This document shows, one piece after another, positions 2,069 to 39,547 of a DNA stretch of 39,547 nt. The notes under the pieces were generated by a model. The model saw nothing but the letters and a program-made list of their open reading frames with translations. It was not told the DNA's origin and did not search any database. The DNA is from a virus: positions 1 to 39,547 of IMG/VR virus record IMGVR_UViG_3300050014_000367, one strand, 5' to 3'. The translations under genes were made by a program, and so were the position numbers. Positions within the stretch are counted from its first letter, which is position 1. Each line of letters starts with the position of its first letter.

Positions 2069-2154
2069 TTACGCTAACTTTTACGCTATCACCTCTTAAA
2101 AGGGCTTATATAGTGTCCTAGTCTAGCACTGATTGAATGTTGCGCTTTACGCTA
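2069..2154. repeat. Three TTACGCTA repeats
   Basis: TTACGCTA at 2069-2076, 2081-2088 (12-base period) and 2147-2154. The last lies within the 3' end of the TerS-like gene. A reversed partial copy (TAGCGTA) is at 1981-1987. Possible protein-binding sites near the putative packaging/origin region; chance cannot be excluded for the third copy. Confidence 0.4.
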
Positions 2155-2501
2155 AGACTAATTGACTTTTGCATCGCTTTACCCCTGATATGATCAATAA
2201 CAAAATGAGAGTTTTTTGTGGCAATCTTCTCATCATTACTATTTACCATCAATCCTACACGATTAATTGAATCAATCCCAATCTGTTGCAATGTATTATC
2301 TATAAAGTCCAGTGCTGATTCTTCATTAGCTTTTGTTCTGATTCGAAACGCGCGCAATGCCGGGTTAAGAATCTCCGGGTTCATAACTCTTACCGCTTCT
2401 GTGCCATTGCCCACATCAAATTCTAAAGCCTTAAACTTAACTACTGTTTGATCAGTAATATTGTTATATGGTCTTTTGGTTCCTGTCCGCTTAATTGTCA
2501 T
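2118..2501 (-). CDS. terS: Probable small terminase subunit (TerS-like)
   Basis: 127 residues. The C-terminal half has a helical stretch (INRVGLMVNSNDEKIATKNS) ending FVIDHIRGKAMQKSIS. This matches the pattern seen in many small terminase subunits, in which a helical repeat is followed by (L/I)DRxxGKxxQ. The basic N-terminus (MTIKRTGTKRP) could contact DNA. No HTH repressor motif is obvious. The gene is on the same strand as terL, about 2 kb upstream. It appears leaderless: -10 TACAAT ends six bases before the ATG. Alternatives are a DNA-binding regulator or another packaging accessory. Family assignment is from pattern recognition only. Confidence 0.5.
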   Translation of the reverse strand: MTIKRTGTKRPYNNITDQTVVKFKALEFDVGNGTEAVRVMNPEILNPALRAFRIRTKANEESALDFIDNTLQQIGIDSINRVGLMVNSNDEKIATKNSHFVIDHIRGKAMQKSISLSVKRNIQSVLD

Positions 2502-2537: not shown

Positions 2538-2620
2538 TATTTGGGCGTTGTGTATAGATATTATTGATGTTTTATCGCATAATCTTTTCATCACCCCTGT
2601 TATTTCATAGTGCTAATGTA

Positions 2621-2649
2621 TTGACAAGATGCTTATACTGGAGTATTAT
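2621..2649 (+). promoter_or_regulatory. Early rightward promoter
   Basis: TTGACA at 2621-2626, 17-base spacer, TATTAT at 2644-2649. The spacer contains GCTTATACT, a variant of the element shared with promoters at 7708, 14223 and 35732 (minus). Transcription should start near 2656, leaving about 265 bases before the first gene. Confidence 0.75.
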
Positions 2650-2691
2650 TAAAGTATGACAAAGCTACACGGCAAGTCATAGAATGATTTA

Positions 2692-2897
2692 CAATCAGTA
2701 CAGCAGACAATAACATTGCAGCGGTAAGCAATAAAAACCACAGCCGAGAGTCGCCCTGTACTGATTGAATCATAAACAAATTTAACAACTCGATCCCCTC
2801 TACCTGAGCAACCAGCCTAGCCGGATGTGTAATCCATCCTAGCCGTTGCGTGGTGGTAATAGTGAATAGCGCCAAGGTGCTTAGGTAAAAGGGATCG
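2692..2897 (+). ncRNA. Highly structured 5' leader of the first early transcript
   Basis: Two strong inverted repeats lie between the early promoter and the first gene. Stem A is perfect over 12 bp (2692-2703 with 2756-2767) and encloses a small ATTGC/GCAAT hairpin. Stem B spans 20 positions (2791-2810 with 2878-2897) with 17 Watson-Crick pairs, one G-U and two mismatches. It encloses a GGATG/CATCC hairpin (2823-2827 with 2835-2839) and two CCTAGCCG direct repeats (2816-2823, 2838-2845). The 3' arm of stem B ends 22 bases before the ATG at 2920, just before the AAAGGA ribosome-binding site. It could be an RNA regulatory leader or a DNA site with cruciform potential. No known riboswitch class was recognised. 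Confidence 0.6.
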
Positions 2898-2919
2898 AAG
2901 CTATAAAGGACTTTAGCAA

Positions 2920-3387
2920 ATGAATACCACGCTTGAACAATCAAAAATATATGGTTATGGCCACACCAAAGAAGCCAGCCAATTAGTACGCGAGACATTG
3001 AAACATGAACTAGCCAAAGAGATTAAAGCCTATGGCCTAGTCATCACAGTACAAAAAGCTAATAGCGGTTATGGCGGACCACGCGTCCAGATAACCACTA
3101 ATAACGCTAATTTTGATAGTGTTTATGAATATATTGTGGATGAAAACGGACAACCGGCCGACAGCGGGCGATTGGTCCGGGTATCAACATATAAGACGCC
3201 ACGCCCTCACTATTCAGCCCGATTATTGAACGCGTCAGAAATAAACGAGACAGCCAAAGCTGTTAGCGTAAAGATTCGATCTATACTTAGCCAATTTGGC
3301 AAAGATAACGACGACGCTATGACTGATTACTTTGACAATACTACACCGCTTTATTATGGCGTTGAGTTCATAGGTAAGGAGTTATAG
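2920..3387 (+). CDS. LPD29-like domain protein
   Basis: 155 residues, first gene of the early operon. Residues about 16-70 (TKEASQLVRETLKHEL, then VITVQKANSGYGGPRVQI) match the layout of large polyvalent-protein-associated domain 29: an amphipathic helix K-x-x-A-x-x-(I/L/V)-R followed by a short beta hairpin with a glycine-rich turn. Near the C-terminus, DAMTDYFDNTTPLYYGVEF is consistent with the same family's end. LPD domains occur in phage and mobile-element proteins delivered or expressed early; the biochemical role is unknown. RBS AAAGGA eleven bases before the ATG. Family call moderately sure. Confidence 0.6.
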   Translation: MNTTLEQSKIYGYGHTKEASQLVRETLKHELAKEIKAYGLVITVQKANSGYGGPRVQITTNNANFDSVYEYIVDENGQPADSGRLVRVSTYKTPRPHYSARLLNASEINETAKAVSVKIRSILSQFGKDNDDAMTDYFDNTTPLYYGVEFIGKEL

Positions 3388-4729: not shown

Positions 4730-4804
4730 ACTTCAACATCAAAACCAACTGAAAATTAAAAACGCCGTGCAGTTACACGGACGTCTTTATAAACTTCAAC
4801 ATCA
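4730..4804. repeat. Direct repeat ACTTCAACATCA (two copies) with inverted repeat
   Basis: ACTTCAACATCA occurs at 4730-4741 and 4793-4804. The first copy is embedded in GTTTTGA...TCAAAAC (4724-4730 with 4739-4745, 8-base loop). The second copy coincides with the expected start of the short leftward RNA. Possible regulator site; function unknown. Confidence 0.5.
4757..4803 (-). ncRNA. Short leftward antisense RNA candidate (OOP-like)
   Basis: The promoter at 4839..4810 should start transcription near 4803. About 20 bases later comes a hairpin (minus-strand ACG-T-CCGTG paired with CACGGCGT, 4784..4762, 6-base loop, one bulge) followed directly by TTTTTAATTTT, a standard intrinsic terminator. 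The predicted RNA is about 45-50 nt. It is antisense to the rightward mRNA just upstream of the replication genes, the same place and direction as lambda OOP RNA relative to gene O. The signals are seen; expression and function are inferred. Confidence 0.55.
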
Positions 4805-7868: not shown

Positions 7869-8834
7869 ATGACTAAAGCAGTTGCTAAGACTAGCCAATA
7901 TGATTCTGAATTAGAAACTCAATTAGTCCAGACCGGCATGGATAAAAACGAAGCTGTTGAATTGCTTCAACTTTATGGTATGCCACTTACTGAGGCTGGT
8001 GAAATCCTGAAGAGTTACGAGAAGATTAAAGTTACTGACGAATCACAAGTTGATGTTATGGTCCAAGCGCGCGAGATGCGATTAAAACTGCGCAGTATTC
8101 GTGTGGCTGTCGATAAGCGCCATGACGAACTGAAAGTGAATGTGCTGAAGTCTGCTAATGCGATTGATTTTGTGAACCGGACTGTCAAACAGTACATTGA
8201 ACCGGCTGAAACCTATTTGAAATTCCAAGAAGAATTTAGCGAACGTGTATCGGCCGAACGCCGGGCTCGTATTATTGCTGAACGCACCACAGAATTATCC
8301 AAATATATTGATGATCTTTCAATTTACAATCTTGGTGAGATGAACGATGCTCAGTTTGCTGATACATTGGAGCGTGAAAAAACTTTGTATGATTTAAGAA
8401 TCGCTAAAGAAAAAGCAGCTGAAGTTGAACGTATCAAGTTGGAAAAAGCTGAAGAGGTAAAACGTCAGAAGGTGTTCAAAGAAAACGAACGATTACGCGC
8501 TGAGGCCAAGAAGAAACAGGAAGAGACTGATAAAAAGTTGGCCGCGGAACGTGCTAAGGCTGATGAGGAACGTAAGAAACGTGAAGCGATTGAGCAAGAG
8601 TTGGAACTTAAACGAGTTGAGGCTGATGCGGCCAAACGTGCCAAAGAAGAGGCTGAAAAAAAGGCTGCACTTGCACCAGATAAAGAAAAACTACTAGAAT
8701 ATATTTCATTCCTTGATATCCACGATTGTACTGAACTAACGTCTGGAAAGGCCGAGAAAATCTATAATCAGATCAAAGTTCATTTAAGTAAAAGTGTTGA
8801 AATGTATCGTAATTTAGTAGAGAAGGAGTTGTAA
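7869..8834 (+). CDS. Coiled-coil protein of the phage recombination region (DUF1351-like)
   Basis: 321 residues. The N-terminal ~60 residues are helical, followed by a KRHDELK-containing helical domain. Residues about 180-275 are a long charged coiled coil dominated by E, K, A and R ([34 protein letters not shown]). A C-terminal globular helical domain ends in NLVEKEL. Similar coiled-coil proteins sit beside single-strand annealing and exonuclease genes in many phages. Here it heads the operon containing the PD-(D/E)XK nuclease and SSB. RBS AGGAG. The exact family is not certain. Confidence 0.55.
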
Positions 8835-9520
8835 TGGCCAAGAAAATGGAAGTAAAAATTAAGATCTTAAAATGGTTCGATGGTTCTGTACTATATGAAT
8901 CTGAAAAATCAACTCTTAAAGAGGCATTAGTTGATGCGAATTTGCGTGGTGCGGATTTGCGTGGTGCGAATTTGCGTGGTGCGAATTTGCGTGATGCGGA
9001 TTTGCGTGGTGCGAATTTGCGTGGTGCGGATTTGTATGATGCGGATTTGCGTGATGCGGATTTGCGTGGTGCGAATTTGCGTGATGCGGATTTGCGTGGT
9101 GCGAATTTGCGTGGTGCGAATTTGTATGGTGCGAATTTGTATGGTGCGGATTTGCGTGGTGCGAATTTGCGTGATGCGAAAAATTCCGACTATGCTATCG
9201 CACAAACTCGTATATTACCAGAAGGTGATATTATCGGTTATAAAAAATGTGTTGATGATAAAATTGTTAGGTTACTTATACCGAAAGAGGCTAAACGTTC
9301 GCACGCAATGGGTCGTAAATGCCGAGCCGAGTATGCTGAAGTTTTAAAAATCACCAAAAATAGTAAACACTATAAAAAAGCTATTAGCCAAAATCAAGCT
9401 AGTTTTATTTATAAAGTTGGTGAAACTGTACACTGTGATAAATTTGACGAAGACTGGACCCAAGAATGTTCAGGTGGAATACATTTTTTTATTACTAAAT
9501 TAGAAGCGGAAAGGTACTAA
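8834..9520 (+). CDS. Pentapeptide-repeat protein with DUF5758-like C-terminus
   Basis: 228 residues. After a short N-terminal cap come about 16 pentapeptides of the A(D/N)LRG type (residues 33-115), expected to fold as a right-handed quadrilateral beta-helix. The C-terminal ~105 residues ([18 protein letters not shown] ... [13 protein letters not shown] ... [15 protein letters not shown]) match the conserved tail found behind pentapeptide repeats in phages (DUF5758). Pentapeptide proteins can mimic DNA, as with gyrase-binding Qnr/MfpA, but no such role can be shown here. The ATG overlaps the previous stop (TAATG). The nearly identical repeat DNA implies recent expansion. Confidence 0.85.
8931..9180 (+). 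repeat. 15-bp tandem repeat array encoding the pentapeptides
   Basis: Units alternate between GCGAATTTGCGTGGT and GCGGATTTGCGTGAT with very few substitutions (occasional TAT for CGT). Near-identity at silent positions indicates recent unit duplication or gene conversion, so copy number may vary between isolates. Confidence 0.9.
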
Positions 9521-14222: not shown

Positions 14223-14252
14223 TTGACAAGACGCTTATAGTTATGTTATACT
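14223..14252 (+). promoter_or_regulatory. Rightward promoter of the membrane protein/lysozyme pair
   Basis: TTGACA at 14223-14228 with TATACT at 14247-14252 (18-base spacer; TTATAC gives 17). The spacer carries GCTTATAGT. Together with the preceding TA, bases 14221-14239 match 2619-2637 at 18 of 19 positions, so this promoter is nearly a copy of the early promoter. Confidence 0.7.
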
Positions 14253-23955: not shown

Positions 23956-24390
23956 CTAATTGAATGGCGATAAAAATGTCACCACATCAGCTGTTATTGT
24001 CTGAAATCCGCTAGTAATCTGCATATCCACACCTTCACCGTAACTATAAAATATGGCGTACAAACGTATAACAGTAGCTGAAACACGTTCGATTACTACT
24101 GGAAGATTATAAGAAAAACTATCAACTGGCACTCCGCCCGAATAAACCGTCACTGTAACCGGGGCTAACATACCTAAAGAGCACCATACATCACTAGGTG
24201 CTAAATCAGATGACATTTGTCCTCTGACACCAGCGTTAGTAGTACCAACTGTCAAAAATGATTCATATACCTTACTTGCCCCAGTGGCTAAAACACCACT
24301 GTCGCCTATGTAAATACTGGCTGATTTTTTATCATCATTCTTCAACGATGCATAGTCAGAATTAAATATAAAATTATTAGGTTTTGTCAT
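23956..24390 (-). CDS. Structural protein, beta-rich
   Basis: 144 residues starting MTKPNNFIFNSDYASLKNDD. Beta-sandwich-like composition (VTVTVYSGGVPVDSFSYNLP). The opening layout (NN-FI-x-SDY...ASIYIG) parallels that of the neighbour at 24387-25019 (DNLIKDSD...GSLVIPAGG), so the two may be related tail-tip or fibre-attachment modules. ATGA overlap with that gene. Function unknown. Confidence 0.6.
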   Translation of the reverse strand: MTKPNNFIFNSDYASLKNDDKKSASIYIGDSGVLATGASKVYESFLTVGTTNAGVRGQMSSDLAPSDVWCSLGMLAPVTVTVYSGGVPVDSFSYNLPVVIERVSATVIRLYAIFYSYGEGVDMQITSGFQTITADVVTFLSPFN

Positions 24391-25019
24391 AATTGCGAAT
24401 CCGCATATATCCGATAATGAATATCATTACTTGGGTTAATTATTATTACATCTGAAGTATTGGCTTTCACATACCCGCTAACATTTAATTGTTCAATATA
24501 CCCACCTGATTTAATCCAAGCAAGAACTTGAGGGCGTTTCCCAAGACCATGATGAACTGTAGGTGACGTGCCCGCCAGCGCAACTCCAGGAAGTAGTAAC
24601 TTAGTGTAGTTGTAATCACTGTTGGATTGGAATTTATCAGCCAAAGATGCTGTATAAGGGGCATCAACATTCACATCACTAGGCATAAACCCATAAACAC
24701 GCCAGTAAGCGACGATGTCAGCGCCAGTGGGGTTAAGCCCACTGACAACCAGATTGGTACTATCAGTTTTTACCGTAACATACGGAAGATTTGGATCAAC
24801 ACCTTCCCAACCAGAAAAGAAACACTCTTTGCTAGTAGAAAAGACTGGATCGGTAGACCATGTTCCTACTGGCAATGGCGTAAATAGCCGCGAGTGCGGA
24901 ACTGACATAGTAGCCCCTAACCCACCGCCAGCTGGAATCACTAAACTGCCATGGTCCATATACGTTATCATATCGAATGGTCGATCAGAGTCTTTTATAA
25001 GGTTATCTGGAGAAGACAT
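24387..25019 (-). CDS. Structural protein, probable tail-associated
   Basis: 210 residues. SPDNLIKDSDRPFDMITYMD at the start, then HGSLVIPAGG. The second half contains TSPTVHHGLGKRPQVLAWIK, a motif of a kind seen in phage tail-tip and fibre domains, ending DVIIINPSNDIHYRIYADSQL. Between the nozzle-region genes and the ejection genes, so likely virion. No catalytic motif. Confidence 0.6.
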   Translation of the reverse strand: MSSPDNLIKDSDRPFDMITYMDHGSLVIPAGGGLGATMSVPHSRLFTPLPVGTWSTDPVFSTSKECFFSGWEGVDPNLPYVTVKTDSTNLVVSGLNPTGADIVAYWRVYGFMPSDVNVDAPYTASLADKFQSNSDYNYTKLLLPGVALAGTSPTVHHGLGKRPQVLAWIKSGGYIEQLNVSGYVKANTSDVIIINPSNDIHYRIYADSQL

Positions 25020-25020
25020 T

Positions 25021-25422
25021 TTAACCTCCTAGTTCAGCAACAACATCAATCCCTGGTTTAGTCTGCCAGTTGCCGGCGCGACCATCGTCAGGAGCCGAAC
25101 CTTGCAAAATAGTAGGAATATTATTGTTATAAATTACTTGAATGTTAGTAGTGTAGTCCCAATAGTACAGTAGTTGAGCATGTGGATCCGTGACGTCATT
25201 GCCTGGAGCAGATATTTTCATACCGAAGTCACCACCCGGCCACCCACCAGGTAAATACCCATTAATATAACGTTTATGTGAAGTATCAGAAAAGACTTGA
25301 GATTTTAAAAGTCCATTAAGATGATCAATAATACTGTTTAAAACAGCAATCTGTTCTTCTCTAGTTGAATTTGGTGATAAACGACTGAGTGTACCACCAG
25401 TAAGGGGTAATCCAGTATCCAT
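25021..25422 (-). CDS. Small tail-region protein
   Basis: 133 residues. STREEQIAVLNSIIDHLNGL is a helical coiled segment of the type that trimerises fibre or adaptor proteins. It is followed by RYINGYLPGGWPGGDFGMKI and a beta domain. Its start overlaps the nozzle gene stop. Probably links nozzle and distal parts; unproven. Confidence 0.55.
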   Translation of the reverse strand: MDTGLPLTGGTLSRLSPNSTREEQIAVLNSIIDHLNGLLKSQVFSDTSHKRYINGYLPGGWPGGDFGMKISAPGNDVTDPHAQLLYYWDYTTNIQVIYNNNIPTILQGSAPDDGRAGNWQTKPGIDVVAELGG

Positions 25423-27416
25423 TATTTTTGGCGACCAATCTTGTATTGACTAATATAACCATACAATTCAACTGGAGTTTCAACTCCGTTACGTTCAAAA
25501 CGGTATTGAATATGTTCGCCACGACCGCTCATACCTGAACGATTCTGGACCTGTTGTTGCGTTCCCCACTTGGTGCCATCTCCCCACTTAAATGCCCCCC
25601 ACTTAGCACCACCGCCAGACACTTCATAAGCCCGCATATCAGGCGTATTCTGGAAATTCATGTCTTTACCCACGGAAAGGGTATAATCGGCGTCTACGGT
25701 CCTTACAATCGGTCTAAAACGCTTAATTCGTTTCTTAGCCGATGCGCCGCCAAATGTTTGACCAGAACGTTTACGATAAGCATAGGTTTTATAGTTGGTC
25801 CAAAACTTATAGTCAATCTTTTTACCTAAGTCAGAACCTTGGGTTTCGCCATAATAAGCCGCGCCAACTAACGAACTGAATTCAATTAATTCATTATTAT
25901 CGAGATACAGGTTCATTGAACCCATTACTGGATGACCAGTATCAAGGAACCATTGCATCGTTTCAAGGTCAAGCAACGCCATTCTATCAGCATATCCCTT
26001 TGGATTTTTAGCATAGTAAACACGTAATTGGTTACGATAAATATCCAAACGAACAGTATTCATATTAGAGATACCTTGCAGTTCAGGTTGAATCTTATCT
26101 GATAGTAATTGATCGGACACACCATTGTACCGGTAAATCTGTCCATCATCCGCCATAAAGTAAATGTAATTTCGATCCGCAACAATTGCTTCTTGGCTGA
26201 CAGCCCCCTTAGTGCCGATGGCTTCGCGACGCGTGAAACTAGAGATGTCTGAACCAGTAATAACGTGTTTAGTCTCGTGAGTGAAAATAACTAAGTTATC
26301 TTGAAATACCTTCCAACCTGACATATGGTCGGCCGATAGGGGGGTTGGTACATAGAAGAAGTTAACGGAAGGCCAAGTTGTAATATCACTCAACTCTGAG
26401 AAATCAACACGAGTGCTGGCACTCATCACAAAACAACGATTCTGCCACATTATAACGTTGCTAGGTGTATTCGTAGGGACATTAGCAACATCACTTGGCG
26501 CATTAGTACCATCCCATTGTCGCAGTTTATCATACCCATTGGTGTACAGAGTGTAATCGTCCATTTGAGCAAACCTATAAATAGATGCGTTGGCATCACG
26601 ACCGGTATCAATAGCCGTTAGAACACCATTGCCTTTACTGAACGCTTGGACCGTAGTACCATGAGCAAATATAATCTTATTAACACTGTTGGATGGATAA
26701 CGAGTCGTAAACCCTTTTGCCTTACCGACAGTAGAAATATAGGTTTTATATCGGATTGAAGCAGCAATTGTACTCCATGAACCACCAGCATTTAAAGATA
26801 ACATGTCGGCTACACCACCCACCTGGGCAGTTTGGTTTAAATAGTAAGTCCCACTTCCATTATCTTGGGTATAGCAAACTAACCAATACTGAGTCCCAGC
26901 AACTACACTTGGCGCATCAATGAAGTAGGCGGATAGATATTGATAACTTGTAGTAATCGTACTTGCTAAAATAGATCCCTGAGCAATCAACTGACCCGGG
27001 AACCCGGCATTATCTGACCAAATCTCTACGATAACGTGACCAGTGGCACCAGCTAACTTCTTAATGGCTGGTTGTAAGCGCGTTAGAGCCCCGCTACCGC
27101 TAAATACGATAGGTTGTGCAATAACTTGGGTTGGAGAGAATGCAACGTCTCCTATGGCCGTAGCAACGTTCTGAACGTCTGCCGTTTCGCCAACAGGAAT
27201 AGATAGGTAACCAGAACCCTTGCGTGTTCGGTTGGCGACCCTTGTATCACCTTCGTCACGAGCATAAGAACGTGAATTAATCGTCCAAGGGCTTTCACCA
27301 GCTGGCATAACCGCATCAGGTGTAATGAGGTTCAAACCCTTTAAATCGTAAGTTTCCTCAACAGCTGGCGAAGAAGTCGCCTGTGGGTTCATACGTGGCG
27401 TAAAAGCACTTTGCAT
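25422..27416 (-). CDS. Tail nozzle / stabilisation protein (beta-propeller)
   Basis: 664 residues. The N-terminal arm (YDLKGLNLITPDAVMPAGES) is followed by an inserted jelly-roll-like module (about 95-205; SGALTRLQPAIKKLAGATGH). A long beta-propeller section then carries repeated strands (YTLYTNGYDKLRQWDG, NRCFVMSASTRVDFSELSD, NYIYFMADDGQIYRYNG). The last residues (GEHIQYRFERNGVETPVELY, ending YISQYKIGRQK) match the end of P22 gp10/T7 gp12-type nozzle proteins. It closes the tail channel and contacts the fibres. Confidence 0.75.
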   Translation of the reverse strand: MQSAFTPRMNPQATSSPAVEETYDLKGLNLITPDAVMPAGESPWTINSRSYARDEGDTRVANRTRKGSGYLSIPVGETADVQNVATAIGDVAFSPTQVIAQPIVFSGSGALTRLQPAIKKLAGATGHVIVEIWSDNAGFPGQLIAQGSILASTITTSYQYLSAYFIDAPSVVAGTQYWLVCYTQDNGSGTYYLNQTAQVGGVADMLSLNAGGSWSTIAASIRYKTYISTVGKAKGFTTRYPSNSVNKIIFAHGTTVQAFSKGNGVLTAIDTGRDANASIYRFAQMDDYTLYTNGYDKLRQWDGTNAPSDVANVPTNTPSNVIMWQNRCFVMSASTRVDFSELSDITTWPSVNFFYVPTPLSADHMSGWKVFQDNLVIFTHETKHVITGSDISSFTRREAIGTKGAVSQEAIVADRNYIYFMADDGQIYRYNGVSDQLLSDKIQPELQGISNMNTVRLDIYRNQLRVYYAKNPKGYADRMALLDLETMQWFLDTGHPVMGSMNLYLDNNELIEFSSLVGAAYYGETQGSDLGKKIDYKFWTNYKTYAYRKRSGQTFGGASAKKRIKRFRPIVRTVDADYTLSVGKDMNFQNTPDMRAYEVSGGGAKWGAFKWGDGTKWGTQQQVQNRSGMSGRGEHIQYRFERNGVETPVELYGYISQYKIGRQK

Positions 27417-27418
27417 GG

Positions 27419-28084
27419 TTAGAAGTCCTTACTTGCGTTGTAACTTCCGCGAGGTGATCGACGATTAGTCCGCATAATCGTTGGCCCAATTTTCATTCCG
27501 CCACGCCCTTCGTTACGAACGAAAGAAGTAACCAAAGGTGCTAAGTTAGCTCGTTCGGATGCAGCTTCACCGTAATCTTCATTGCGCTCCATACAACGTG
27601 CCAAAGCACCTAATACAACCATTTCACCATATTGATCAGGAATATCAGATGTATCATTATCATCCACCAGTGTTTGAGGGCGACGTAGATAGTCAATGCT
27701 AACTGTTGCATCTGTTAATGCCGGAGCGGCCAAACGCATACCGTTACCGAAATCAGTCCACGCCTGGACCTGACTAGGAGTGTAGGTTGCATAACCAGGA
27801 TAATTCTTCATGAAATCACCATATTCCATGTATCGGTTCAAAATATTGTACACTTGCGGCGAAGTAACGTGAACGTTGAGCATTGTTTGCATATCATCAG
27901 GCATATCGGCAGATGTGTCGCCGGCCGAAACATAAATATCGTCAGAACTCTCCATAAAACGAATTCGATGATCGTTAAAAACTTCGTAATGAAACCAATT
28001 TATTGCTTCGTCAATAGTCGCTTGGTCATACTGGGTATCATCAAGCCGACCACGTACTGAAGCACGAATATCTGAAAGAATCAT
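27419..28084 (-). CDS. Head-to-tail adaptor / connector protein
   Basis: 221 residues, mostly helical. RASVRGRLDDTQYDQATIDE, then AINWFHYEV and a central beta part, with PDQYGEMVVLGALARCMERN and EDYGEAASERANLA. Helical proteins of this size directly before the nozzle gene in podoviruses form the dodecameric ring under the portal (P22 gp4/T7 gp11 role). Starts in overlap with the preceding gene. Assigned by position and fold pattern rather than strong identity. Confidence 0.55.
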   Translation of the reverse strand: MILSDIRASVRGRLDDTQYDQATIDEAINWFHYEVFNDHRIRFMESSDDIYVSAGDTSADMPDDMQTMLNVHVTSPQVYNILNRYMEYGDFMKNYPGYATYTPSQVQAWTDFGNGMRLAAPALTDATVSIDYLRRPQTLVDDNDTSDIPDQYGEMVVLGALARCMERNEDYGEAASERANLAPLVTSFVRNEGRGGMKIGPTIMRTNRRSPRGSYNASKDF

Positions 28085-28407
28085 AGATGTTTCCTAACTT
28101 TAATTTTCAATTGATCATAAAGTGTCTCAACACTGCCATCACCAGCATAAGTGATACGTAAATCAGCTTTATAAGTACCTGGAGAAATAAAGTCATTGGC
28201 ACCTGGAGTATACGAAACCAGACCCGATATAGGAGTAACAAGTGTACACGCTGTATGACCAGTATTCACGACAGTTGAACCCCTCGCGATTATTAAATCA
28301 ACAGTTGCACCAGTAACGTCAATAACAACTCCTGCTCTCTTAGCGGTGATTCCTAATGCTGGTGCCGTGTTACCTTGTACAGTGTTTATTGTTTGTATTT
28401 GTGACAT
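28081..28407 (-). CDS. Ig-like baseplate/tail protein (BppU N-terminal-like)
   Basis: 108 residues from the ATG at 28407 (MSQIQTINTVQGNTAPALGI), chosen because AAAAGGA lies upstream; an earlier ATG at 28443 is inside the previous gene. GVVIDVTGATVDLIIARG and PISGLVSYTPGANDFISPGT are the strands and turn of the Ig-like domain found in BppU-type proteins. Ends KIKVRKHL. Likely a small virion adaptor or decoration. A TGCTATAAT box at 28452..28444 may add a promoter. Confidence 0.6.
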   Translation of the reverse strand: MSQIQTINTVQGNTAPALGITAKRAGVVIDVTGATVDLIIARGSTVVNTGHTACTLVTPISGLVSYTPGANDFISPGTYKADLRITYAGDGSVETLYDQLKIKVRKHL

Positions 28408-28408
28408 T

Positions 28409-29113
28409 TTATTGTAGTGTCCTTTTATTACTATCTGTGTCAATTATAGCACTAGAACCATCGGTATTAACAGTGTTTTGGTTGTTGACCTGATTTATAG
28501 AACGATTAGAGTTTTTAATATCGATCGAACGGCTTTCACTCAACTCATTAATAGTACGATTTTCGTTAGTGGTATTAACAGTATATAACGCCATTGCAAT
28601 TCGCGATAAGTTTATCAAATCACTTAGTATAACTGAATCAGAAACGTTAATAGTATAAGTTTTACTATATGCATCAGTGATATTTATAGTATCGGTTTTT
28701 TTAAGGTTAATGGTCTTAATAATTTGATCAGCTACAGAAACAGATTCAACAAACGTGCGCCACCAGGTTACTACCCGACTAAACACATCAAATGACGTAA
28801 CCGAATCGGCCATATTCTTTATGAGTGTTTTAGGACCTAATATTTCTGAACTAGTAACTGAATCAGAAACGTTTTTAGTAGTAGTTTTAACGATGCTATC
28901 AGTAGTACTACCAGTCGAATCAGATTTTTCTAAACTAACAGTTTTAATAATTGAATCGGCAGTAGACCCTGTATCGGATTTATAAATACGAATCGTAAAA
29001 ACCCTGGCATCACTACTAGTAACCGAGTCACTTAGACTGACATTATAAACAGAGCCAGTATAATTGCCTGTTGCGGCGTACGGCACTTCTCCATAGTATA
29101 TTCTGCCATACAT
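28409..29113 (-). CDS. Repetitive fibre-like protein with DSV repeats
   Basis: 234 residues. About eight imperfect repeats of roughly 20-27 residues contain DSVTSSD or variants followed by a short strand such as KT(V/I)(S/N)L (NVSLSDSVTSSD, KNVSDSVTSSEI, KNMADSVTSFDV, INVSDSVILSDL). The C-terminus turns into an Asn/Ser-rich segment (NTTNENRTINELSESRSIDI). Tandem beta repeats of this type form elongated phage fibres. No catalytic motif. Confidence 0.6.
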   Translation of the reverse strand: MYGRIYYGEVPYAATGNYTGSVYNVSLSDSVTSSDARVFTIRIYKSDTGSTADSIIKTVSLEKSDSTGSTTDSIVKTTTKNVSDSVTSSEILGPKTLIKNMADSVTSFDVFSRVVTWWRTFVESVSVADQIIKTINLKKTDTINITDAYSKTYTINVSDSVILSDLINLSRIAMALYTVNTTNENRTINELSESRSIDIKNSNRSINQVNNQNTVNTDGSSAIIDTDSNKRTLQ

Positions 29114-30198
29114 TAGGCGGCCTCATAAGTACCTTGGCAATATATTTCGTCGCTTGTAGTCCATGTAATCGGGAGGGTACTGGTAATAGAATTATCTCCA
29201 CCAGATGCAGTCACGGCAGCGGTATCTATATATCGTACACGAGCAGTAGTTGTAGAGTTATACTCAACCCAACCAGTGTAGCGTGCCGTACCAGGGTCTA
29301 GGAACCCTGCCTGACCTATGACTGGGACCTGTGCCGCGATTGAAACTGATGTCACAGGTAAGGAGAATATAGCATCTGTCGCTCCACCATCCATAGGAGT
29401 TGCATTATTAGATACTAGATATAACCTAAAATAAATTGTTTTACCAATCTGAGTATACTTACAGGCTTTTGTCCATTTAGCATCATTAAGACGACCCGAT
29501 AATGTTGGTGTCCATGCCAACCATGCCCCACCAACGTCCCCGGCGGTTGTAGATAAATTAGCATTAGCCACTTTGGCGCTTGTCCAGTTCGTACCGTCAG
29601 AAATTAGGGTATTACCTGATGTAGTGGCAATAGGGTAAGTTTCCGTAGACGCCGTCCAGTTCGTACCATCAGATACGATAATCTTGCGAGTAGTAGCTGA
29701 GGCGTTAGGGAACGTCGGAGTTGATGCAACCCAATCTGTGCCATTAGAAACCAGTACCTTACCTGATGTGTCTACAGCGGCGTGAGGCACGTTATGACCG
29801 TCATGAACAGCCTTAGAGGTTATAAACTCCGCATCGTCAGTCAACGCATCTAAATCAGTCCCAGCAGCCTTTACTGGAATACCAGATTCAATATCCGCTA
29901 ACGTTTTATCTGTCAAACCAGCCATGATTTGATCACCGACAATCACTGTGCGAGCTGAAGAACCTTCCTGCGCACGAGTAACTGTTAATGTATCAGTCAC
30001 TTTGACAGTAACACGTACAACCTCGGCATTGGTAGAACTAGGATTAGTCCCAATTGGCCATATAACAGCGTTAAAAGGAGCGGCAGGGAATAATTCTCCC
30101 TGCTCAGTCGCAACTATCACAGTAACACCAGAGGTTGCAGGTATAGGAGCAGTTGCTACTGTTGAGATTGCAAAGTTTTTACGTGCATCGAAAGCCAT
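29113..30198 (-). CDS. Tail fibre-like structural protein
   Basis: 361 residues. The N-terminal domain (LFPAAPFNAVIWPIGTNPSS, NAEVVRVTVKVTDTLTVTRA, QEGSSAR) is a conserved virion-attachment module in many tail proteins. Three repeated VSDGTNW(T/V)AS strands follow (residues about 150-215), then a C-terminal beta domain (KYTQIGKTIYFRLYLVSN) like the trimeric heads of receptor-binding proteins. A host-recognition role is likely. Confidence 0.7.
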   Translation of the reverse strand: MAFDARKNFAISTVATAPIPATSGVTVIVATEQGELFPAAPFNAVIWPIGTNPSSTNAEVVRVTVKVTDTLTVTRAQEGSSARTVIVGDQIMAGLTDKTLADIESGIPVKAAGTDLDALTDDAEFITSKAVHDGHNVPHAAVDTSGKVLVSNGTDWVASTPTFPNASATTRKIIVSDGTNWTASTETYPIATTSGNTLISDGTNWTSAKVANANLSTTAGDVGGAWLAWTPTLSGRLNDAKWTKACKYTQIGKTIYFRLYLVSNNATPMDGGATDAIFSLPVTSVSIAAQVPVIGQAGFLDPGTARYTGWVEYNSTTTARVRYIDTAAVTASGGDNSITSTLPITWTTSDEIYCQGTYEAA

Positions 30199-30208
30199 TT
30201 TAAGCCTC

Positions 30209-30733
30209 CTAGCTTATAGTCAAAGTCCAACTTATTGAAAGTACGTCCAAAGCGCCTTTGTTTATTACACTGAATGATTGTGAAGCCCACATATTAACCG
30301 TGTTAGCCGTAACAACATCAAATATACCAGCTTCAGTCAAAGCACCAGTGCCAGAACCCGCTGCCCAGTTACCAACAAAAGTAATGATTGCATTAGCACC
30401 ACGAGTCTTAGAAGTTAACGCTACACGGCTTATTTCAGTCCCTAGGAGCGTTGCAGCCGGCGAACCTGTACCAATTGCCATCCAACCCGGTTTAGCAAGC
30501 GTAGGAGACGCTAGAATCTGATCTGCGATAGCATTCTTACCAGCAGTGGTGACAGTATTGTGTAAGAATCGTTCATCTTTGATGTTGCCGTCTTTATCGC
30601 GGAGGACTAAATGCATATTATACTTCAAATGACGACTATTAACGTCAACACCGTCAACTACTGAACTATGTGCCAATTCGCCATTCTTACTGATTTCGAC
30701 TGAGTCCGATGTGTTTGTTTTGTCGTGTAGCAT
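30209..30733 (-). CDS. Conserved virion protein of tail-fibre region
   Basis: 174 residues. HLVLRDKDGNIKDERFLHNT, KPGWMAIGTGSPAATLLGTE, LTEAGIFDV and MWASQSFSVINKGALDVLSI form a pattern recurrent in phage structural clusters (a single beta-sandwich domain ending in SWTLTIS). N-terminal ~20 residues disordered. Probably a fibre or head-fibre component. Confidence 0.65.
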   Translation of the reverse strand: MLHDKTNTSDSVEISKNGELAHSSVVDGVDVNSRHLKYNMHLVLRDKDGNIKDERFLHNTVTTAGKNAIADQILASPTLAKPGWMAIGTGSPAATLLGTEISRVALTSKTRGANAIITFVGNWAAGSGTGALTEAGIFDVVTANTVNMWASQSFSVINKGALDVLSISWTLTIS

Positions 30734-30747
30734 ATCGTTCCTTTTTA

Positions 30748-31926
30748 TTACGCTGCGGTTACATCTGAATTAGGTGCCAATGCGATGTAATCGAGTATAT
30801 AATTAATTTTACCTGTGGCTGTAGCAGCCGTAGCAGTCGTAGCGAATATTTGTTCATTCTGAACTAGCCATAGAGGGACTTTATCAAGCGCAGTACCACG
30901 AGCAACAACAGCAGCCGATTTGTCGATTCCCTTTGGAACTACAAGTGTAGTTGAGGTCAAAATAGGAATCAACATATTTGTTGTACCAGTGACACCGTGG
31001 ACCAAAGTAGCGTTTGTACCAGTCAAACTCGTTGCGATATAGCCACGTAGTGAACAAATGATCGGACCAGTTACATTGAATAGAGGGATTTTACCATCTG
31101 AACCACCAGTCATTAATGTTGCGACCATTGCCGTAACGACCCCAGTACCATTATCACCACCTGAGTTGGCAACACTAACAAGTGCGGCCGCTTCGGTATG
31201 AGCATCGACAGCAGTTTTAACGTTTGCAGCAGTAGAAATGATTTGTCCGGCATCTAAACCACCGGTAAGGAATACCGCACCACCAGCCCATGAAAGATGA
31301 GTCGATGCTTCAGCAATTGCAATAAAGTTACCAGCAGTACCACCAGTATTAGCGGTAACAGTAGTAGCATGAGCGGTCAAAGTGCCAGCTGTGCATGTTG
31401 GGTGGACCAAAGTCCCGGCAAAGTATTCAACACCAGCCGTACCAGTACCGTTGATGGCCTTGATAAGGTTACCCATAGTAGTGTCGGCAGTCGTACCGTC
31501 TCGTTTAACATCGTAAGCCTGAGCCATCGTGTCTTTGAATCGATAAACAGTTGTACCAATCGTAACCGTATCGCCATCCGTTAGTTCCGTATTATCACTC
31601 GTAAGCACTTTAGAAGCCGCTGTAAGGCTTGCAGTCGCTAATTCGACTGTGATAGCCTTTATAGTTCCAGCATTGACGTGGACCTGTATAGCACGCGCTA
31701 CAGTCGAAATAGGGTCCTTATATTCAATCGAAACACTATTGCCCGCCGTACCAGCAGTTTTATTAGTGAAAACCATATCATTGTTGGTACCGGTCAAGAC
31801 TGTAGTAAGAGTAGCGCCAGCAGACAGAGCCCCACTGGTGATTCCACCATCAAAGGTGACTGTTTTCATCGCCCCGGCGGCGACCATGCCTGTTTGAATG
31901 AGTGCTGCTTGGACTGGTGTGATCAT
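30748..31926 (-). CDS. Virion structural protein with Ig-like/GN-repeat modules
   Basis: 392 residues, Thr/Ala/Gly/Val-rich. Two copies of a module with TAGTAGNSVSIEYKDP and GGTAGNFIAIAEASTHLSW, and a central TDGDTVTIGTTVYRFKD, a beta arrangement found in many tail and surface proteins. C-terminal LDKVPLWLVQNEQIFATTAT. First leftward gene after the HNH insertion, with its own promoter. Head fibre or tail protein cannot be distinguished. Confidence 0.6.
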   Translation of the reverse strand: MITPVQAALIQTGMVAAGAMKTVTFDGGITSGALSAGATLTTVLTGTNNDMVFTNKTAGTAGNSVSIEYKDPISTVARAIQVHVNAGTIKAITVELATASLTAASKVLTSDNTELTDGDTVTIGTTVYRFKDTMAQAYDVKRDGTTADTTMGNLIKAINGTGTAGVEYFAGTLVHPTCTAGTLTAHATTVTANTGGTAGNFIAIAEASTHLSWAGGAVFLTGGLDAGQIISTAANVKTAVDAHTEAAALVSVANSGGDNGTGVVTAMVATLMTGGSDGKIPLFNVTGPIICSLRGYIATSLTGTNATLVHGVTGTTNMLIPILTSTTLVVPKGIDKSAAVVARGTALDKVPLWLVQNEQIFATTATAATATGKINYILDYIALAPNSDVTAA

Positions 31927-31955
31927 TTTTATTTTCTTCTTTCAGTTATATGTCT

Positions 31956-31964
31956 ATATTATCA
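31956..31964 (-). promoter_or_regulatory. Extended -10 promoter after the HNH insertion
   Basis: TGATAATAT (31964..31956), with a weak -35 candidate 17 bases upstream of the hexamer. It restarts late transcription downstream of the terminator at 32543-32573. Confidence 0.5.
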
Positions 31965-32012
31965 TATTCTATAAATAATTGTAACATACAACCTAATCGT
32001 AAAACATAACGA

Positions 32013-32041
32013 TTGTTTTTATATGTTTCATAGTGTACAAT
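32013..32041 (+). promoter_or_regulatory. Promoter giving a leaderless HNH mRNA
   Basis: TTGTTT at 32013-32018, 17-base spacer, TACAAT at 32036-32041. The ATG begins at 32048, where the transcript should start; no RBS precedes it. Same -10 hexamer and six-base gap as the TerS-like gene. Confidence 0.65.
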
Positions 32042-32047
32042 ACCCAT

Positions 32048-32578
32048 ATGCAAGAGATATTCAAACCAGTACCATACAAACCGTTCAACACCAAATATGT
32101 AATATCAAACTTAGGCAACGTTAAACCAATTATAAAAAGTAAATATGCCAATAACAAAAACGAATTTCTAAAGTGGGGAATCGGATCAAGAGGCTACCCA
32201 TGTGTCACACTATATTGTAACGGGAAAACCAGCCAATTATTCGTACACAGAATGGTAGCATTGGCATTTATAGGAGACTCGCCAACTGGTAAAAAACTAG
32301 TTTGCCACAAGGACGACGATAAACTAAATAATACCCCAGAAAACCTATCTTGGGGCGATAATACCGATAATATGCGCGATATGGCCAAAAAACGACGCAG
32401 TATGTATGGAGAACGTAACTGCAAAGCCAAACTCACTGAAAAACAGGTAAAAGAAATCAAAGTATTACTCAGCGACCCGAATATATCACAAACGGAGATA
32501 GCTGGTATGTACGGAGTATGCCAAACACAAATTTCACATATAAAAAGAGGTACCCACTGGGGATACCTCTTTTCTTGA
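32048..32578 (+). CDS. Free-standing HNH homing endonuclease (NUMOD4-HNH-HTH)
   Basis: 176 residues from the ATG at 32048; a GTG at 32033 lies on the -10 box and is unlikely. NUMOD4-like start (EIFKPVPYKPFNTKYVISNL, then GNVKPI), HNH core (LFVHRMVALAFIGDSPTGKK, then LVCHKDDDKLNNTPENLSWG), and a C-terminal DNA-binding segment (KLTEKQVKEIKVLL ... SQTEIAGMYGVCQTQISHIK). It is a selfish mobile gene, the only rightward gene inside the leftward virion block, inserted between the capsid group and the tail/fibre group. Promoter and terminator are its own, so it interrupts the operon cleanly. Confidence 0.88.
   Translation: MQEIFKPVPYKPFNTKYVISNLGNVKPIIKSKYANNKNEFLKWGIGSRGYPCVTLYCNGKTSQLFVHRMVALAFIGDSPTGKKLVCHKDDDKLNNTPENLSWGDNTDNMRDMAKKRRSMYGERNCKAKLTEKQVKEIKVLLSDPNISQTEIAGMYGVCQTQISHIKRGTHWGYLFS
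32543..32573. terminator. Bidirectional terminator overlapping the HNH stop
   Basis: AAAAGAGGTA (32543-32552) pairs perfectly with TACCTCTTTT (32564-32573), 11-base loop. Leftward it is followed by U-rich TTATA after the CTCTTTT arm, ending the capsid-side transcript. Rightward it lies in the last codons of the HNH gene and is followed by the AT-rich palindrome-like GAATATATATAATATATTC. Confidence 0.75.
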
Positions 32579-32599
32579 CAGAATATATATAATATATTC

Positions 32600-33025
32600 T
32601 TACTGTTCCCTTGACCAAGTTCCCTTGATGTCAGTAACGACAGGGCCGTTAGTTTCACCACAGTTCAAGATTCGAACTTCATCACCAACTTTTGCCGTAG
32701 CAGCAGTGTTGATGAGGTCCTTGTCATCAGTAGCAGTACCACTGACTCCACCTTGAATTTTGTCAGACGAGTTAGGGCTGACTGAGATTTTGTTACCGTT
32801 CATGGTTGCGCCTGATGGTACACCACTCGCAACTGCTAGACCACCATTACGGATGATCCACTTACCCAAAGTTGCTGTTGCTGGAATTGTTACAACGCCG
32901 TTAGCGTAAATAACGTTCTGGGCGTAACCACTGTCGTCCACGGTCAGAGTTTTAGCTTCAGTGACATCTACGGCGATTTGGCCGTCAGGTAGTTTATAAG
33001 CTGTTGAGTTTGCTGGGTTTGCCAT
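32600..33025 (-). CDS. Probable head decoration / capsid-stabilising protein
   Basis: 141 residues. Beta-rich Ala/Thr/Gly sequence (QIAVDVTEAKTLTVDDSGYA, ATLGKWIIRNGGLAVASG), ending KIQGGVSGTATDDK...SREQ. It is the last gene before the terminator on the capsid-side transcript; small beta proteins next to capsid commonly cement the shell. The ATG overlaps the upstream stop. Function inferred by position. Confidence 0.5.
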   Translation of the reverse strand: MANPANSTAYKLPDGQIAVDVTEAKTLTVDDSGYAQNVIYANGVVTIPATATLGKWIIRNGGLAVASGVPSGATMNGNKISVSPNSSDKIQGGVSGTATDDKDLINTAATAKVGDEVRILNCGETNGPVVTDIKGTWSREQ

Positions 33026-35732: not shown

Positions 35733-37870
35733 GCACTAACTGGAGTGGCATCGCCGGTTCCAGCAGGAGCCGCACTCATACCATCAGGTGTCTGCGCATT
35801 AGGGTCAACCGGTGGTGGCAACGCAGGGACACTTGGGTCCTGATTACCCTTAGAATCAGTTTGAGGGTTCAATAAGTCAGCCTGTTCAGCACCAATCTTG
35901 ACGGCATTGTGGTTTTCATCGATCTCATGTTGAGGATCTGGTTGCATATGGAGAATTGTTTCAATCTGTGACTGGACAAATGGAGTAGCCCATCGATATA
36001 TCTCAGCGACCGCGGCCAATTCAGCCTTTGCTTGATCGGCTTGCATCTTCATCTCACCTTCGTTCGGTTGTGGTGGTGTAGGTTGAGCAAGCATCTTATT
36101 AAACCGTTCATCAGTAACAGATGGATCAATATGTTGAACGATAAATCGTTTGACTTCTATCGGATCGAATACACCATGTGGATCTTCTGATAGTTGCAAG
36201 TAAACTTGGTTGTCCTTTTGACCGACTTCCATAAGTTTTCGTTTAATAGTCGTATCAAGTTCAACGTGTGGTTCCCATTTGCCATTAAATTCATATGGAT
36301 CGTAATCTTTAAACTCAGTACCGTTTTTACCAACAATACGCATAGCAGTGGTTCGCGTAACGAAAATCTGCACCATTTTGTAGATGATTTCAGCCAATTG
36401 AGCATAACCTTCGTTTTCAAGGTTAGAAGTCTTAGTTGAAAAGCGGTTTTGAGCCTGTCCAATCTGCGTAGAGACTTCAGTGGCAGTTGTACGACTATTC
36501 CCGGCTGCGATGCCTTGTACGGCCTCGTCTGCAGCCGTAGCGGCACGCATACGTTCCTGAATACGTTGTTTCTTGTTATCCAAATCACCAGATAATTGTG
36601 GTCGTTCCAAAGCGCCCATCGCATTACGCGGTATTGGATATACCGCACCCGGGATTGTCTCAATTTCAGGTGCCAAATCAGCAAACTGTGGGTCAATCCA
36701 GTACATCGGAGTATTTTGGTAGGCATTATTGTCAATATCCATTGATTCATAGTCGTTCAACAGTTCGGCGTCACCCATGATGATGGCCATTTCACCTTCA
36801 CCATAGAATAATGACGTGTCAACGTAGTCACGAAGTACAGCAAACGGCAAGAATGGTTCAATTTCATCAAGATTTTTAGTCGTAGGAATTGATTCGCCTT
36901 CAACTTCGACTGGTTCGCCAGGTAATTCAGACGCCTCACGTTGCAAGTGACTGTCTTCGTAGTAAATAAACGCTTTTTTATTGCCAATTTCAACAATTTT
37001 TTCACTAATTAGATCATAAATGATAATAACTCGGACCTGAGAATCAACAGCATCTTCTCCAAGAGTTGAACCGTTGAACATATCCTTGAACGCCTTATCC
37101 ATTGAACCATGATCACCATCAGCTTGACCGCCCTGGTTGACTGTAGTATCAACCCCGATTATGTCCAAGTTTTTATACTTAGGCACCATTTTATTTTCTT
37201 TGGCACTATATATCATCTGTTGTTTTAGGACTTCTTTATCAGCCAAGTATTCGAATCCGGCATAACGAGCTGGGTTGGTCGTATCAACCATACCAGTAGC
37301 AGTTGGATCGACGAAGAAATCACGAAGTGGAATGTTTTCGATGAATGGTTTACCATCGCGCCAAGTAACGTGAAGAATACCGGTACCATAAAGCAACATG
37401 TCGCGAACCCACTCTTGATTTTTCAATCCCATGTGATTGCACTGCATATAATAATCGAGCATACCGTTCAATATTTCAGTATCGCCAGTTTGTTCTTCAT
37501 TGGTTGCAACAAAGTGGAACGATGGGTTACCACCAGCAATATTGGCGACTAAAGTCTCAATAATGGTGTGTGACTCGCGAATATTAGGGTCCGAAATACC
37601 CTCATAATTACGAACAACACGTTCGCCCTTATAAACCTTGAAATAATTGTCCCAGTTGGTTCGAAGTCCAGTAGAGGTATACTTTTTAGCCGCGTCATAC
37701 ATCTTCAACGCTTTTTCAAGCGTCAGTTCACTTGCACTACCTTCCGCGACGGTGCCGAGCTCTTGCATCTCTTCTTCGGGCGACTGCTTCGGAATTTGAG
37801 TGGCTTGGTCGGATGCCGGTTGGGTTGGCGATGGAGTCGAGTTCGTTGTTGGCGTTTGTGTTGGAGGCAT
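35729..37870 (-). CDS. Portal protein (P22-like)
   Basis: 713 residues, the large size of podovirus portals. KYTSTGLRTNWDNYFKVYKG, then HTIIETLVANIAGGNPSFHF and MLLYGTGILHVTWRDGKPFI mark the clip/wing start. A long stem/crown helix region contains RNAMGALERPQLSGDLDNKK and IQERMRAATAADEAVQGIAA, and the C-terminal tail is Pro/Gln/Ala-rich. It forms the dodecameric DNA channel at one head vertex. The ATG at 37870 lies 134 bases inside terL; an internal Met at residue 35 is an alternative start that would shrink the overlap. Confidence 0.88.
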   Translation of the reverse strand: MPPTQTPTTNSTPSPTQPASDQATQIPKQSPEEEMQELGTVAEGSASELTLEKALKMYDAAKKYTSTGLRTNWDNYFKVYKGERVVRNYEGISDPNIRESHTIIETLVANIAGGNPSFHFVATNEEQTGDTEILNGMLDYYMQCNHMGLKNQEWVRDMLLYGTGILHVTWRDGKPFIENIPLRDFFVDPTATGMVDTTNPARYAGFEYLADKEVLKQQMIYSAKENKMVPKYKNLDIIGVDTTVNQGGQADGDHGSMDKAFKDMFNGSTLGEDAVDSQVRVIIIYDLISEKIVEIGNKKAFIYYEDSHLQREASELPGEPVEVEGESIPTTKNLDEIEPFLPFAVLRDYVDTSLFYGEGEMAIIMGDAELLNDYESMDIDNNAYQNTPMYWIDPQFADLAPEIETIPGAVYPIPRNAMGALERPQLSGDLDNKKQRIQERMRAATAADEAVQGIAAGNSRTTATEVSTQIGQAQNRFSTKTSNLENEGYAQLAEIIYKMVQIFVTRTTAMRIVGKNGTEFKDYDPYEFNGKWEPHVELDTTIKRKLMEVGQKDNQVYLQLSEDPHGVFDPIEVKRFIVQHIDPSVTDERFNKMLAQPTPPQPNEGEMKMQADQAKAELAAVAEIYRWATPFVQSQIETILHMQPDPQHEIDENHNAVKIGAEQADLLNPQTDSKGNQDPSVPALPPPVDPNAQTPDGMSAAPAGTGDATPVSA

Positions 37871-39547
37871 TTTTATTTCTCTTTATTGGTTTACTAATAT
37901 TGTCTCTTAATGTAGCGGAATCCATTTCATCGAAGTCAGTCATTTTTAAAGCGATTGCTTTGGCCATAACTGTATCGTCGAATCGACCCTCTTGCGCGTT
38001 TGTGAAACCTTGGTCATCTTTGACGTAAGTCATGCATTCGCGTATAAAGAGAATGTCTAAATCAAGTATATCACTATCACGGATTGCATGCACTAGATTA
38101 TTAATGATGACCTTTTTAGTTTTTCTGTCAGTGCGCCAACCCATCAAAGCCGTTCGTTCTTGGAATTGGTTCTCTTCGCTGGTCTCCCGTTTATAAAGGT
38201 TACGATAAAATTTATTTCGTAAACTCTGGACTACTGTCAAACCATGGTTATTAATTTCCACAGCCACCAAAGCAGTGTTATAAAATGTACCAATAGCATA
38301 AGTAACACCGCCAAGTAAATCGGGATCGATATGGCCGCGCCAACGTGCAACAGTTTTCAAATCTCTGACACGTGTCACGTCAATTACAGAATAGTCATTT
38401 TCTTTACCTGTTGTAGTCTGTTCAATTTTACCTTCCGACACATCGACACCAATAACAAACTTTTCACCCGGTTCCGGTAAATCCCAAACCTTCAATGGAG
38501 ATGGATCACTACCTTCAGATATTGTTGCAATCTCTTCAAACACATAATTTTTCGAACCGATATTAGTGCCGTCCGGTACAATCTGCCCGAATCGATGATT
38601 CGAATGTTTCTTGGCATACTGTTCCATTTTACGCAATATTTCAAGATCAAATACTGGGCGACCAGATGCTAGGAACGCTTCCATATCTGTGGCTGGATAT
38701 TCTTGGTAAAACTTCTTAGGATCATAACGAAACTCTTTTTTCTTTGCCCGACGCCACAAAACTTTACGATCCCACGAATCGCGGTCATAACCTTTTTCGC
38801 GAAAGATATCGAATAACTTTAGTTCCTCTTCGGTATAGTCAGTCAACGACATAGTACATGGCAACTCGTACTCACTATGCTCATGCCAAGCAAAAAATAA
38901 CGGACGAAAGGCGCCTTCACCAGTTACAGCATTCTGCCATTCATCGTAAAAATAACCACCAACACCGTTAGCGGTACTCTCCAAAAAACCAAATGTATTA
39001 GCCGCCATAGGTATCGCCTGAATCGCTGACGAAACGACATCGGCTTTGACTTCCCAAAAGGCAACCTCGGACCCATGAAAAAAGGTAATCATAAGTGAAC
39101 GACCTTTACCATCTTTGGCAACCATGGTCTTAATACTGCTGTCAAGCCCCAACGGTTTATGTGATACGCCGCACGACTCCGGACTTTCACAAGCATCGAT
39201 ATGCTTTTTCCACTCGGCTTTTACGTTATCTTCAACGTCAAACACAATATCTTTTCGGGTGTTATACTTTTTGTCCGGTTGAAACATCGAGTTCGAAAAA
39301 TCATAATAACGACGAAACATTTCATACAAAGTTTCCGCGGACGTTGATTCGTGCGCCATAATAAGCGAACGAGCATGGCGATGTGTGGTGGTCCACCAGT
39401 AACAAAGGGCCTCAATGATAGTCGATAACCCCATCTGGCGAGCTTTCAATACGATATATCGTACCGGCACGCCCGCTTCCAAGTCCTTCAGCACAATATC
39501 AACCAATAATTTCTGCGCCCAGTTCAACTCAAACGGAATAATCTGCG
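37737..39547 (-). CDS. terL: Large terminase subunit, main part (5' end continues at bases 70..1)
   Basis: 603 codons here; with the segment at 1-70 the protein is about 626 residues. ATPase domain: QIIPFELNWAQKLL, Walker A-like LKARQMGLST, and FFHGSEVAFW as the Walker B/catalytic Glu region. RNase H-fold nuclease: VIGVDVSEG (first Asp), ALVAVEINNHG (Glu), GRFDDTVMAKAIAL (last Asp pair). This enzyme cuts concatemers and drives DNA into the head. The basic, low-complexity C-terminus (ARRRDARARHRRGR) overlaps the portal gene in another frame. Family call is firm. Confidence 0.93.
   Translation of the reverse strand, partial: QIIPFELNWAQKLLVDIVLKDLEAGVPVRYIVLKARQMGLSTIIEALCYWWTTTHRHARSLIMAHESTSAETLYEMFRRYYDFSNSMFQPDKKYNTRKDIVFDVEDNVKAEWKKHIDACESPESCGVSHKPLGLDSSIKTMVAKDGKGRSLMITFFHGSEVAFWEVKADVVSSAIQAIPMAANTFGFLESTANGVGGYFYDEWQNAVTGEGAFRPLFFAWHEHSEYELPCTMSLTDYTEEELKLFDIFREKGYDRDSWDRKVLWRRAKKKEFRYDPKKFYQEYPATDMEAFLASGRPVFDLEILRKMEQYAKKHSNHRFGQIVPDGTNIGSKNYVFEEIATISEGSDPSPLKVWDLPEPGEKFVIGVDVSEGKIEQTTTGKENDYSVIDVTRVRDLKTVARWRGHIDPDLLGGVTYAIGTFYNTALVAVEINNHGLTVVQSLRNKFYRNLYKRETSEENQFQERTALMGWRTDRKTKKVIINNLVHAIRDSDILDLDILFIRECMTYVKDDQGFTNAQEGRFDDTVMAKAIALKMTDFDEMDSATLRDNISKPIKRNKNASNTNANNELDSIANPTGIRPSHSNSEAVARRRDARARHRRGR

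Follow-up and report, generated by a model that had tools for sequence, protein, structure and literature searches.

A conserved structured leader RNA at the predicted start of the early transcript in a clade of uncultivated podophage-like viruses

The leader between the early promoter and the first early gene of the phage record analysed here (39.5 kb, the whole of which we call the window) is a real structured RNA, apparently undescribed, that belongs to a clade of podophage-like viruses known only from uncultivated material. Its structure, its conservation and its position at the predicted +1 of the early transcript are evident from a comparison of 13 leaders, and its most conserved part is a 24–25 nt hairpin, here called H0, that the preliminary description of this DNA overlooked. 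By analogy, the leading mechanism is that the leader would act in cis on the elongating RNA polymerase in the manner of the put RNA of phage HK022 (probability about 0.38); we file it as a new RNA family within the structured early leaders of phages, and not as a put RNA. The features of the locus are as follows.

2118–2501, minus strand: divergent TerS-like gene, 127 aa, present in the relatives used
2593–2602, plus strand: ACCCCTGTTA motif upstream of the early promoter
2621–2649, plus strand: early sigma-70 promoter, TTGACA-17-TATTAT, matching the consensus at 11 of 12 positions
2656–2680, plus strand: H0, the 5′-terminal hairpin, with stem ATGAC/GTCAT and conserved loop AAAGCTACACGGCAA
2684–2773, plus strand: stem A, formed by 2684–2689/2768–2773 and 2692–2703/2756–2767; 18 bp with a 2-nt bulge
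2715–2732, plus strand: HP, a hairpin inside stem A, ATTGC-AGCGGTAA-GCAAT, followed by AAAAAC
2790–2898, plus strand: stem B, formed by 2790–2797/2891–2898 and 2801–2810/2878–2887, with an irregular inner part that holds the CCTAGCCG duplication
2905–2919, plus strand: Shine-Dalgarno sequence AAAGGA and spacer ahead of the first early gene
2920–3387, plus strand: first early gene, 155 aa, function unassigned; the L002 relative is 56% identical
37737–39527: terminase large subunit gene

Genes to the left of 2501 run leftward, beginning with the TerS-like gene, and those to the right of 2920 run rightward and include a DEAD/ResIII helicase, a replication-initiation-like protein, a DnaB-like ATPase and a primase. 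The name TerS-like (small-terminase-like) is suggested by context, and the 127 aa protein has no Pfam match. The leader itself (2656–2919) spans about 265 nt, and the early operon that follows has a single strong promoter, the next strong one being found only at 14223 (14223–14252, TTGACA-18-TATACT with a TG, before a transglycosylase-like gene at 14529). A minus-strand open reading frame at 2633–2998 (121 aa) was considered as a gene and rejected, no counterpart having been noticed among the minus-strand open reading frames of the relatives' leaders.

BLASTN searches with the window leader against phage records, and with the leaders against phage and plasmid records, gave no match; relatives were found through the neighboring proteins, which are about 50–70% identical. 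The 13 leaders compared, each taken from the −35 box to the first start codon, are those of the window, L025, L003, L020, L017, L026, L023, L030, L031, L016 (MW202692.1, a complete podovirus genome from a spring), L021, L022 and L013; L002, which has a related first gene and a shorter leader without stem A, was left out of this set. The 12 other leaders share one order, with the TerS-like gene likewise in the divergent, leftward position, followed by a sigma-70 promoter, the leader and the rightward early genes. The leaders are about 170–266 nt long, and all 13 are contiguous with a Shine-Dalgarno sequence and the early operon.

H0 is tied closely to the promoter. Its first base lies 6–8 nt past the −10 hexamer in 13 of 13 leaders, the promoter-to-H0 spacing being nearly constant throughout, and on this sequence evidence the start of H0 is the predicted transcript start. 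An H0-like hairpin at that point is rare in shuffles of the same 60 nt (combined Fisher χ2 80, 26 df); the related leaders L003, L020 and L017 are singly non-significant in this test because only their three outer pairs were counted, and in these three the 2×2 internal loop of H0 lies two pairs lower with the register unchanged. Among eight gapless sequences (one A of the window's loop AAA being omitted to hold the alignment in register), five of the seven pairs have changed on both sides, 94.6% of cells are paired as against 73% in shuffles and 8–36% when the alignment is slid, and the covariation score is reached by none of 500 shuffles. In most leaders the loop, AAGC-NACACG-GCAA, hardly varies, while substitutions in the stem compensate for one another; in L022 and L013 the hairpin is retained and the loop is not. 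The predicted probability that H0 forms exceeds 0.8 in 11 of the 13 leaders. Scans with H0 as a DNA pattern were unproductive, returning known members or chance matches only, mostly in coding sequence.

Stem A has equivalents of different sequence in the 12 relatives, and in most leaders its outer and inner helices occupy nearly fixed positions and its distance from H0 is nearly fixed as well. The window's variant of the hairpin inside it, HP, is shared by L025 only, where it reads ATTCG-AGCGGTAA-CGAAT, with two compensatory changes and an unchanged loop (as RNA, AUUGC-AGCGGUAA-GCAAU in the window and AUUCG-AGCGGUAA-CGAAU in L025). Elsewhere HP has a 7-nt loop, CGNAACU or UAAACGC, plus an A-rich tail, and in nine relatives this equivalent covaries, with 93.3% of cells paired and none of 500 shuffles as good. 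HP is not drawn in the minimum-energy fold of the window alone. The loop letters of H0 and HP rank among the most conserved, and the covariation score of ten leaders taken jointly is likewise reached by 0 of 500 shuffles. A third hairpin, equivalent to stem B, is present in most leaders but is long and unalignable; none was seen in L013.

The preliminary description had drawn attention to two inverted repeats in the window leader, and both are present: the perfect 12-bp repeat lies at 2692–2703/2756–2767, and the long second stem comprises 21 positions, 86% of them paired, at 2790–2810/2878–2898. Its view that their joint occurrence by chance is improbable is borne out, since among 2000 dinucleotide-preserving shuffles of the leader a perfect repeat of at least 12 bp arose three times, an 18-of-21 repeat never, and the two together never. 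The strong folding that it had noted is also real (−79.3 kcal/mol for the sense strand, z = −5.0, equalled by none of 200 shuffles). A duplication of CCTAGCCG is indeed found at 2812–2823/2834–2845, but the nearest relative lacks it, and by our own estimate about half a chance occurrence of an 8-nt repeat is expected in a sequence of this length. The mismatches in stem B that had been called covariation-type come from one sequence only and hence are not covariation; the comparative evidence for pairing is that of H0 and of the hairpin inside stem A, neither of which had been described. Elsewhere in the window, a pentapeptide-repeat protein gene (8834–9520) has regular repeats that give the most extreme fold z-scores of the whole sequence.

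Fold energy alone does not name the strand on which the structure acts, because the antisense strand of the window leader folds nearly as well (z = −4.4), and fold energies are about equal on both strands in general. A count of G-U against A-C pairs, tried for the same purpose, was swamped by chance repeats in these A/C-rich leaders. What favors an RNA of the plus strand is that H0 is in register with the predicted transcript start.

We searched 32 sources, 426 kb in all, with a covariance model (R1) made from seven of the leaders. R1 recovers the held-out leaders L026 (57 bits, E 7e-9) and L023 (44 bits, E 3e-6), and it matches the window at exactly 2656, though weakly (24 bits, E 0.03) because the window's HP differs in sequence; the first unrelated match ranks below the window (21.6 bits, E 0.11). 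The R1 match taken by itself is thus marginal, and the window is counted as a member on its position and promoter spacing as well. R1 did not pick out the leaders of L025, L013 and L022 in these 426 kb, and these three are included on position and hairpin geometry. The earlier suggestion of a possible new structured RNA is supported: compensatory change keeps the pairing in related leaders, and there is no match in Rfam 15 (4227 families) at the gathering cut-off in the window or in the loci of 11 relatives. In a lax Rfam search of the window leader the match of lowest E was PK-repBA, at 17.5 bits where 45 are needed. A literature search, which covered few subscription papers, found no description of such a leader RNA.

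What this RNA does can be proposed in outline. The host RNA polymerase would start at about 2656, and the first 25 nt would fold into H0 at once; stem A with its inner HP would form within the first ~120 nt and stem B afterwards. The element, either alone or with a bound protein, would then act in cis on the elongating polymerase as HK022 put RNA does, so that transcription stays processive along the long, single-promoter early operon in spite of Rho or pausing. The antitermination site in cis that the preliminary description had listed among its possibilities is compatible with this putative mechanism. From the largely constant loop residues on changing stems we infer that the loops are recognized by something, and with comparable caution we suggest the elongating polymerase as the target and an effect on elongation as the outcome. 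Intrinsic terminators on the plus strand of the early operons are absent in 11 of 14, and that of the window has only one weak terminator, at 4765, before the operon end; since put RNA reads through terminators and there are nearly none here, a put-like action would have to be directed at Rho or pausing. The leader lacks the features of a riboswitch or attenuator, having no terminator and no conserved sequestration of the Shine-Dalgarno sequence; in the predicted folds the Shine-Dalgarno region is mostly open, and the last 24 nt before the ATG are less paired than the rest of the leader in 13 of 13. That the leaders constitute a new class, namely nascent RNAs that, in phages of uncultivated bacteria, act in cis to reprogram the host RNA polymerase so that it transcribes the early genes processively, parallel to put RNA in function and unrelated to it in sequence, is a tentative and somewhat doubtful proposition.

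Put RNA suppresses termination through the β′ zinc-binding domain, and to our knowledge it has been found only in a small set of lambdoid phages. HK022 putL starts at +2/+3, just past the early promoter, is about 70 nt long, consists of two stem-loops, and needs no dedicated protein for its action on the polymerase (PMC9378689). The leaders resemble it in having two tandem stem-loops from the 5′ end of an early phage transcript and no known dedicated protein, but they differ in being longer (about 170–266 nt), in their third hairpin, in the separation of their first two hairpins by several nt, and in the few intrinsic terminators downstream. The −10-like pause element of putL (+23 to +28) may be compared with TAGAAT from about +25 in the window, although it is absent from most leaders. 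R1, run on HK022 24000–33000 with filters off, gave a best match of 10.6 bits (E 0.74), which is not significant; the put sites were not located in that interval, and the comparison may have missed them. The lambda nut sites (boxA/boxB, N protein) also place a hairpin in the leader of an early operon, but there the loop is a pentaloop rather than one of 14–15 nt, the hairpin is not at +1, and an N protein is used, whereas no N-like protein was identified for these leaders. A further possible parallel is offered by the LoaP-type leader hairpins of Bacillota, which act in antitermination through a leader and an elongation factor, but no LoaP/NusG gene was identified beside the leader.

The same structures might serve instead to protect the mRNA, H0 shielding its 5′ end from 5′-dependent decay, stems A and B adding bulk, and the A-rich stretch before the Shine-Dalgarno sequence keeping the ribosome site open. 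We regard this as a close rival of the put-like reading, though somewhat less probable. Every one of the 13 leaders has H0 at the predicted +1, which is the geometry of known 5′ stabilizers such as the ompA and papA leaders, and B. subtilis RppH requires at least 2 unpaired nt at the 5′ end (PMC3997798). Given the predicted start, few or no unpaired nt precede H0, and the greater openness of the last 24 nt before the ATG in all 13 leaders also fits. The leaders nonetheless have a conserved loop and a second conserved hairpin domain that ompA and papA lack, and protection would call for no particular loop and does not account for the nearly fixed spacing between H0 and stem A. A bound protein would explain the conserved loops where 5′-end protection would not, and the two hairpins with conserved loops on covarying stems could together be an operator: an RNA-binding protein of phage or host origin would bind their loops and control how the early mRNA is translated or degraded, for instance to turn the early genes off. 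In the window the H0 loop ends in CGGCAA and the HP loop in CGGTAA (both CGGYAA), each directly before its 3′ arm. An operator is likewise a close rival, slightly less probable than protection. Against it, the Shine-Dalgarno region is mostly open, the HP loop differs by branch (AGCGGUAA as against CGNAACU or UAAACGC), and no candidate binder was identified.

Much less probable is a trans-acting small RNA, which would be cleaved off the early mRNA as the leader and act on other RNAs or proteins; a compact structured 5′ RNA with conserved loops would suit such a role, but no intrinsic terminator precedes the first gene, and the leader is continuous with the early operon in every case. Least probable, finally, is a DNA element between the divergent operons, a replication origin or packaging site whose hairpins act as DNA. 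It adjoins the TerS-like gene, its two strands fold about equally well, and five relatives (L017, L002, L013, L020 and L023, of 14 phages) carry a DnaA-type box, TTWTNCACA, 26–39 nt before the early −35 box. These boxes possibly mark an origin or let host DnaA control the early promoter, but none occurs in the 160 nt searched in the window, and H0 is registered to the transcription start and not to a DnaA box or the TerS gene. The earlier proposal of a DNA origin in the leader itself is thereby disfavored, a DNA element having no need of the link between H0 and the predicted transcript start seen in all 13 leaders.

Upstream of the promoter lies a further conserved sequence, the ACCCCTGTTA motif, which is probably a DNA site for a regulator. 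As ACCYCTGTTA it occurs once, in either orientation, 28–70 nt before the −35 box in 13 of 14 leaders (those of the window, L003, L013, L016, L017, L020, L021, L023, L025, L026, L030, L031 and L002). By eye it lies near the TATAAT of a leftward promoter in several leaders, and it may be the operator of the divergent operon; the window has a second exact copy at 1991–2000 on the minus strand.

If the put-like reading is true, an unrelated RNA at the position of put in another phage clade would be an independent case of RNA-controlled elongation, for which 13 natural variants are already at hand. Were the leader a stabilizer or an operator instead, it would still be a new RNA family, one that could be catalogued and would help to locate the early promoters of uncultivated phages.

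As to the host, L023 (RXKB01000038.1) is a 42.9-kb contig, of the size of a phage genome, that was binned with a Dependentiae MAG. Mis-binning is likely, because a search of 101 Dependentiae genomes for this primase gave a comparable score in no further genome; R1, searched in 95 genomes of the phylum of that MAG, had no match beyond the phage contig. Saccharibacteria would be another candidate host, to judge from the appearance of the transglycosylase-like gene. The same or nearly the same leader occurs on contigs of different metagenomes (L003 and L004; L017, L133 and L135), and therefore the same phages are present in several samples.
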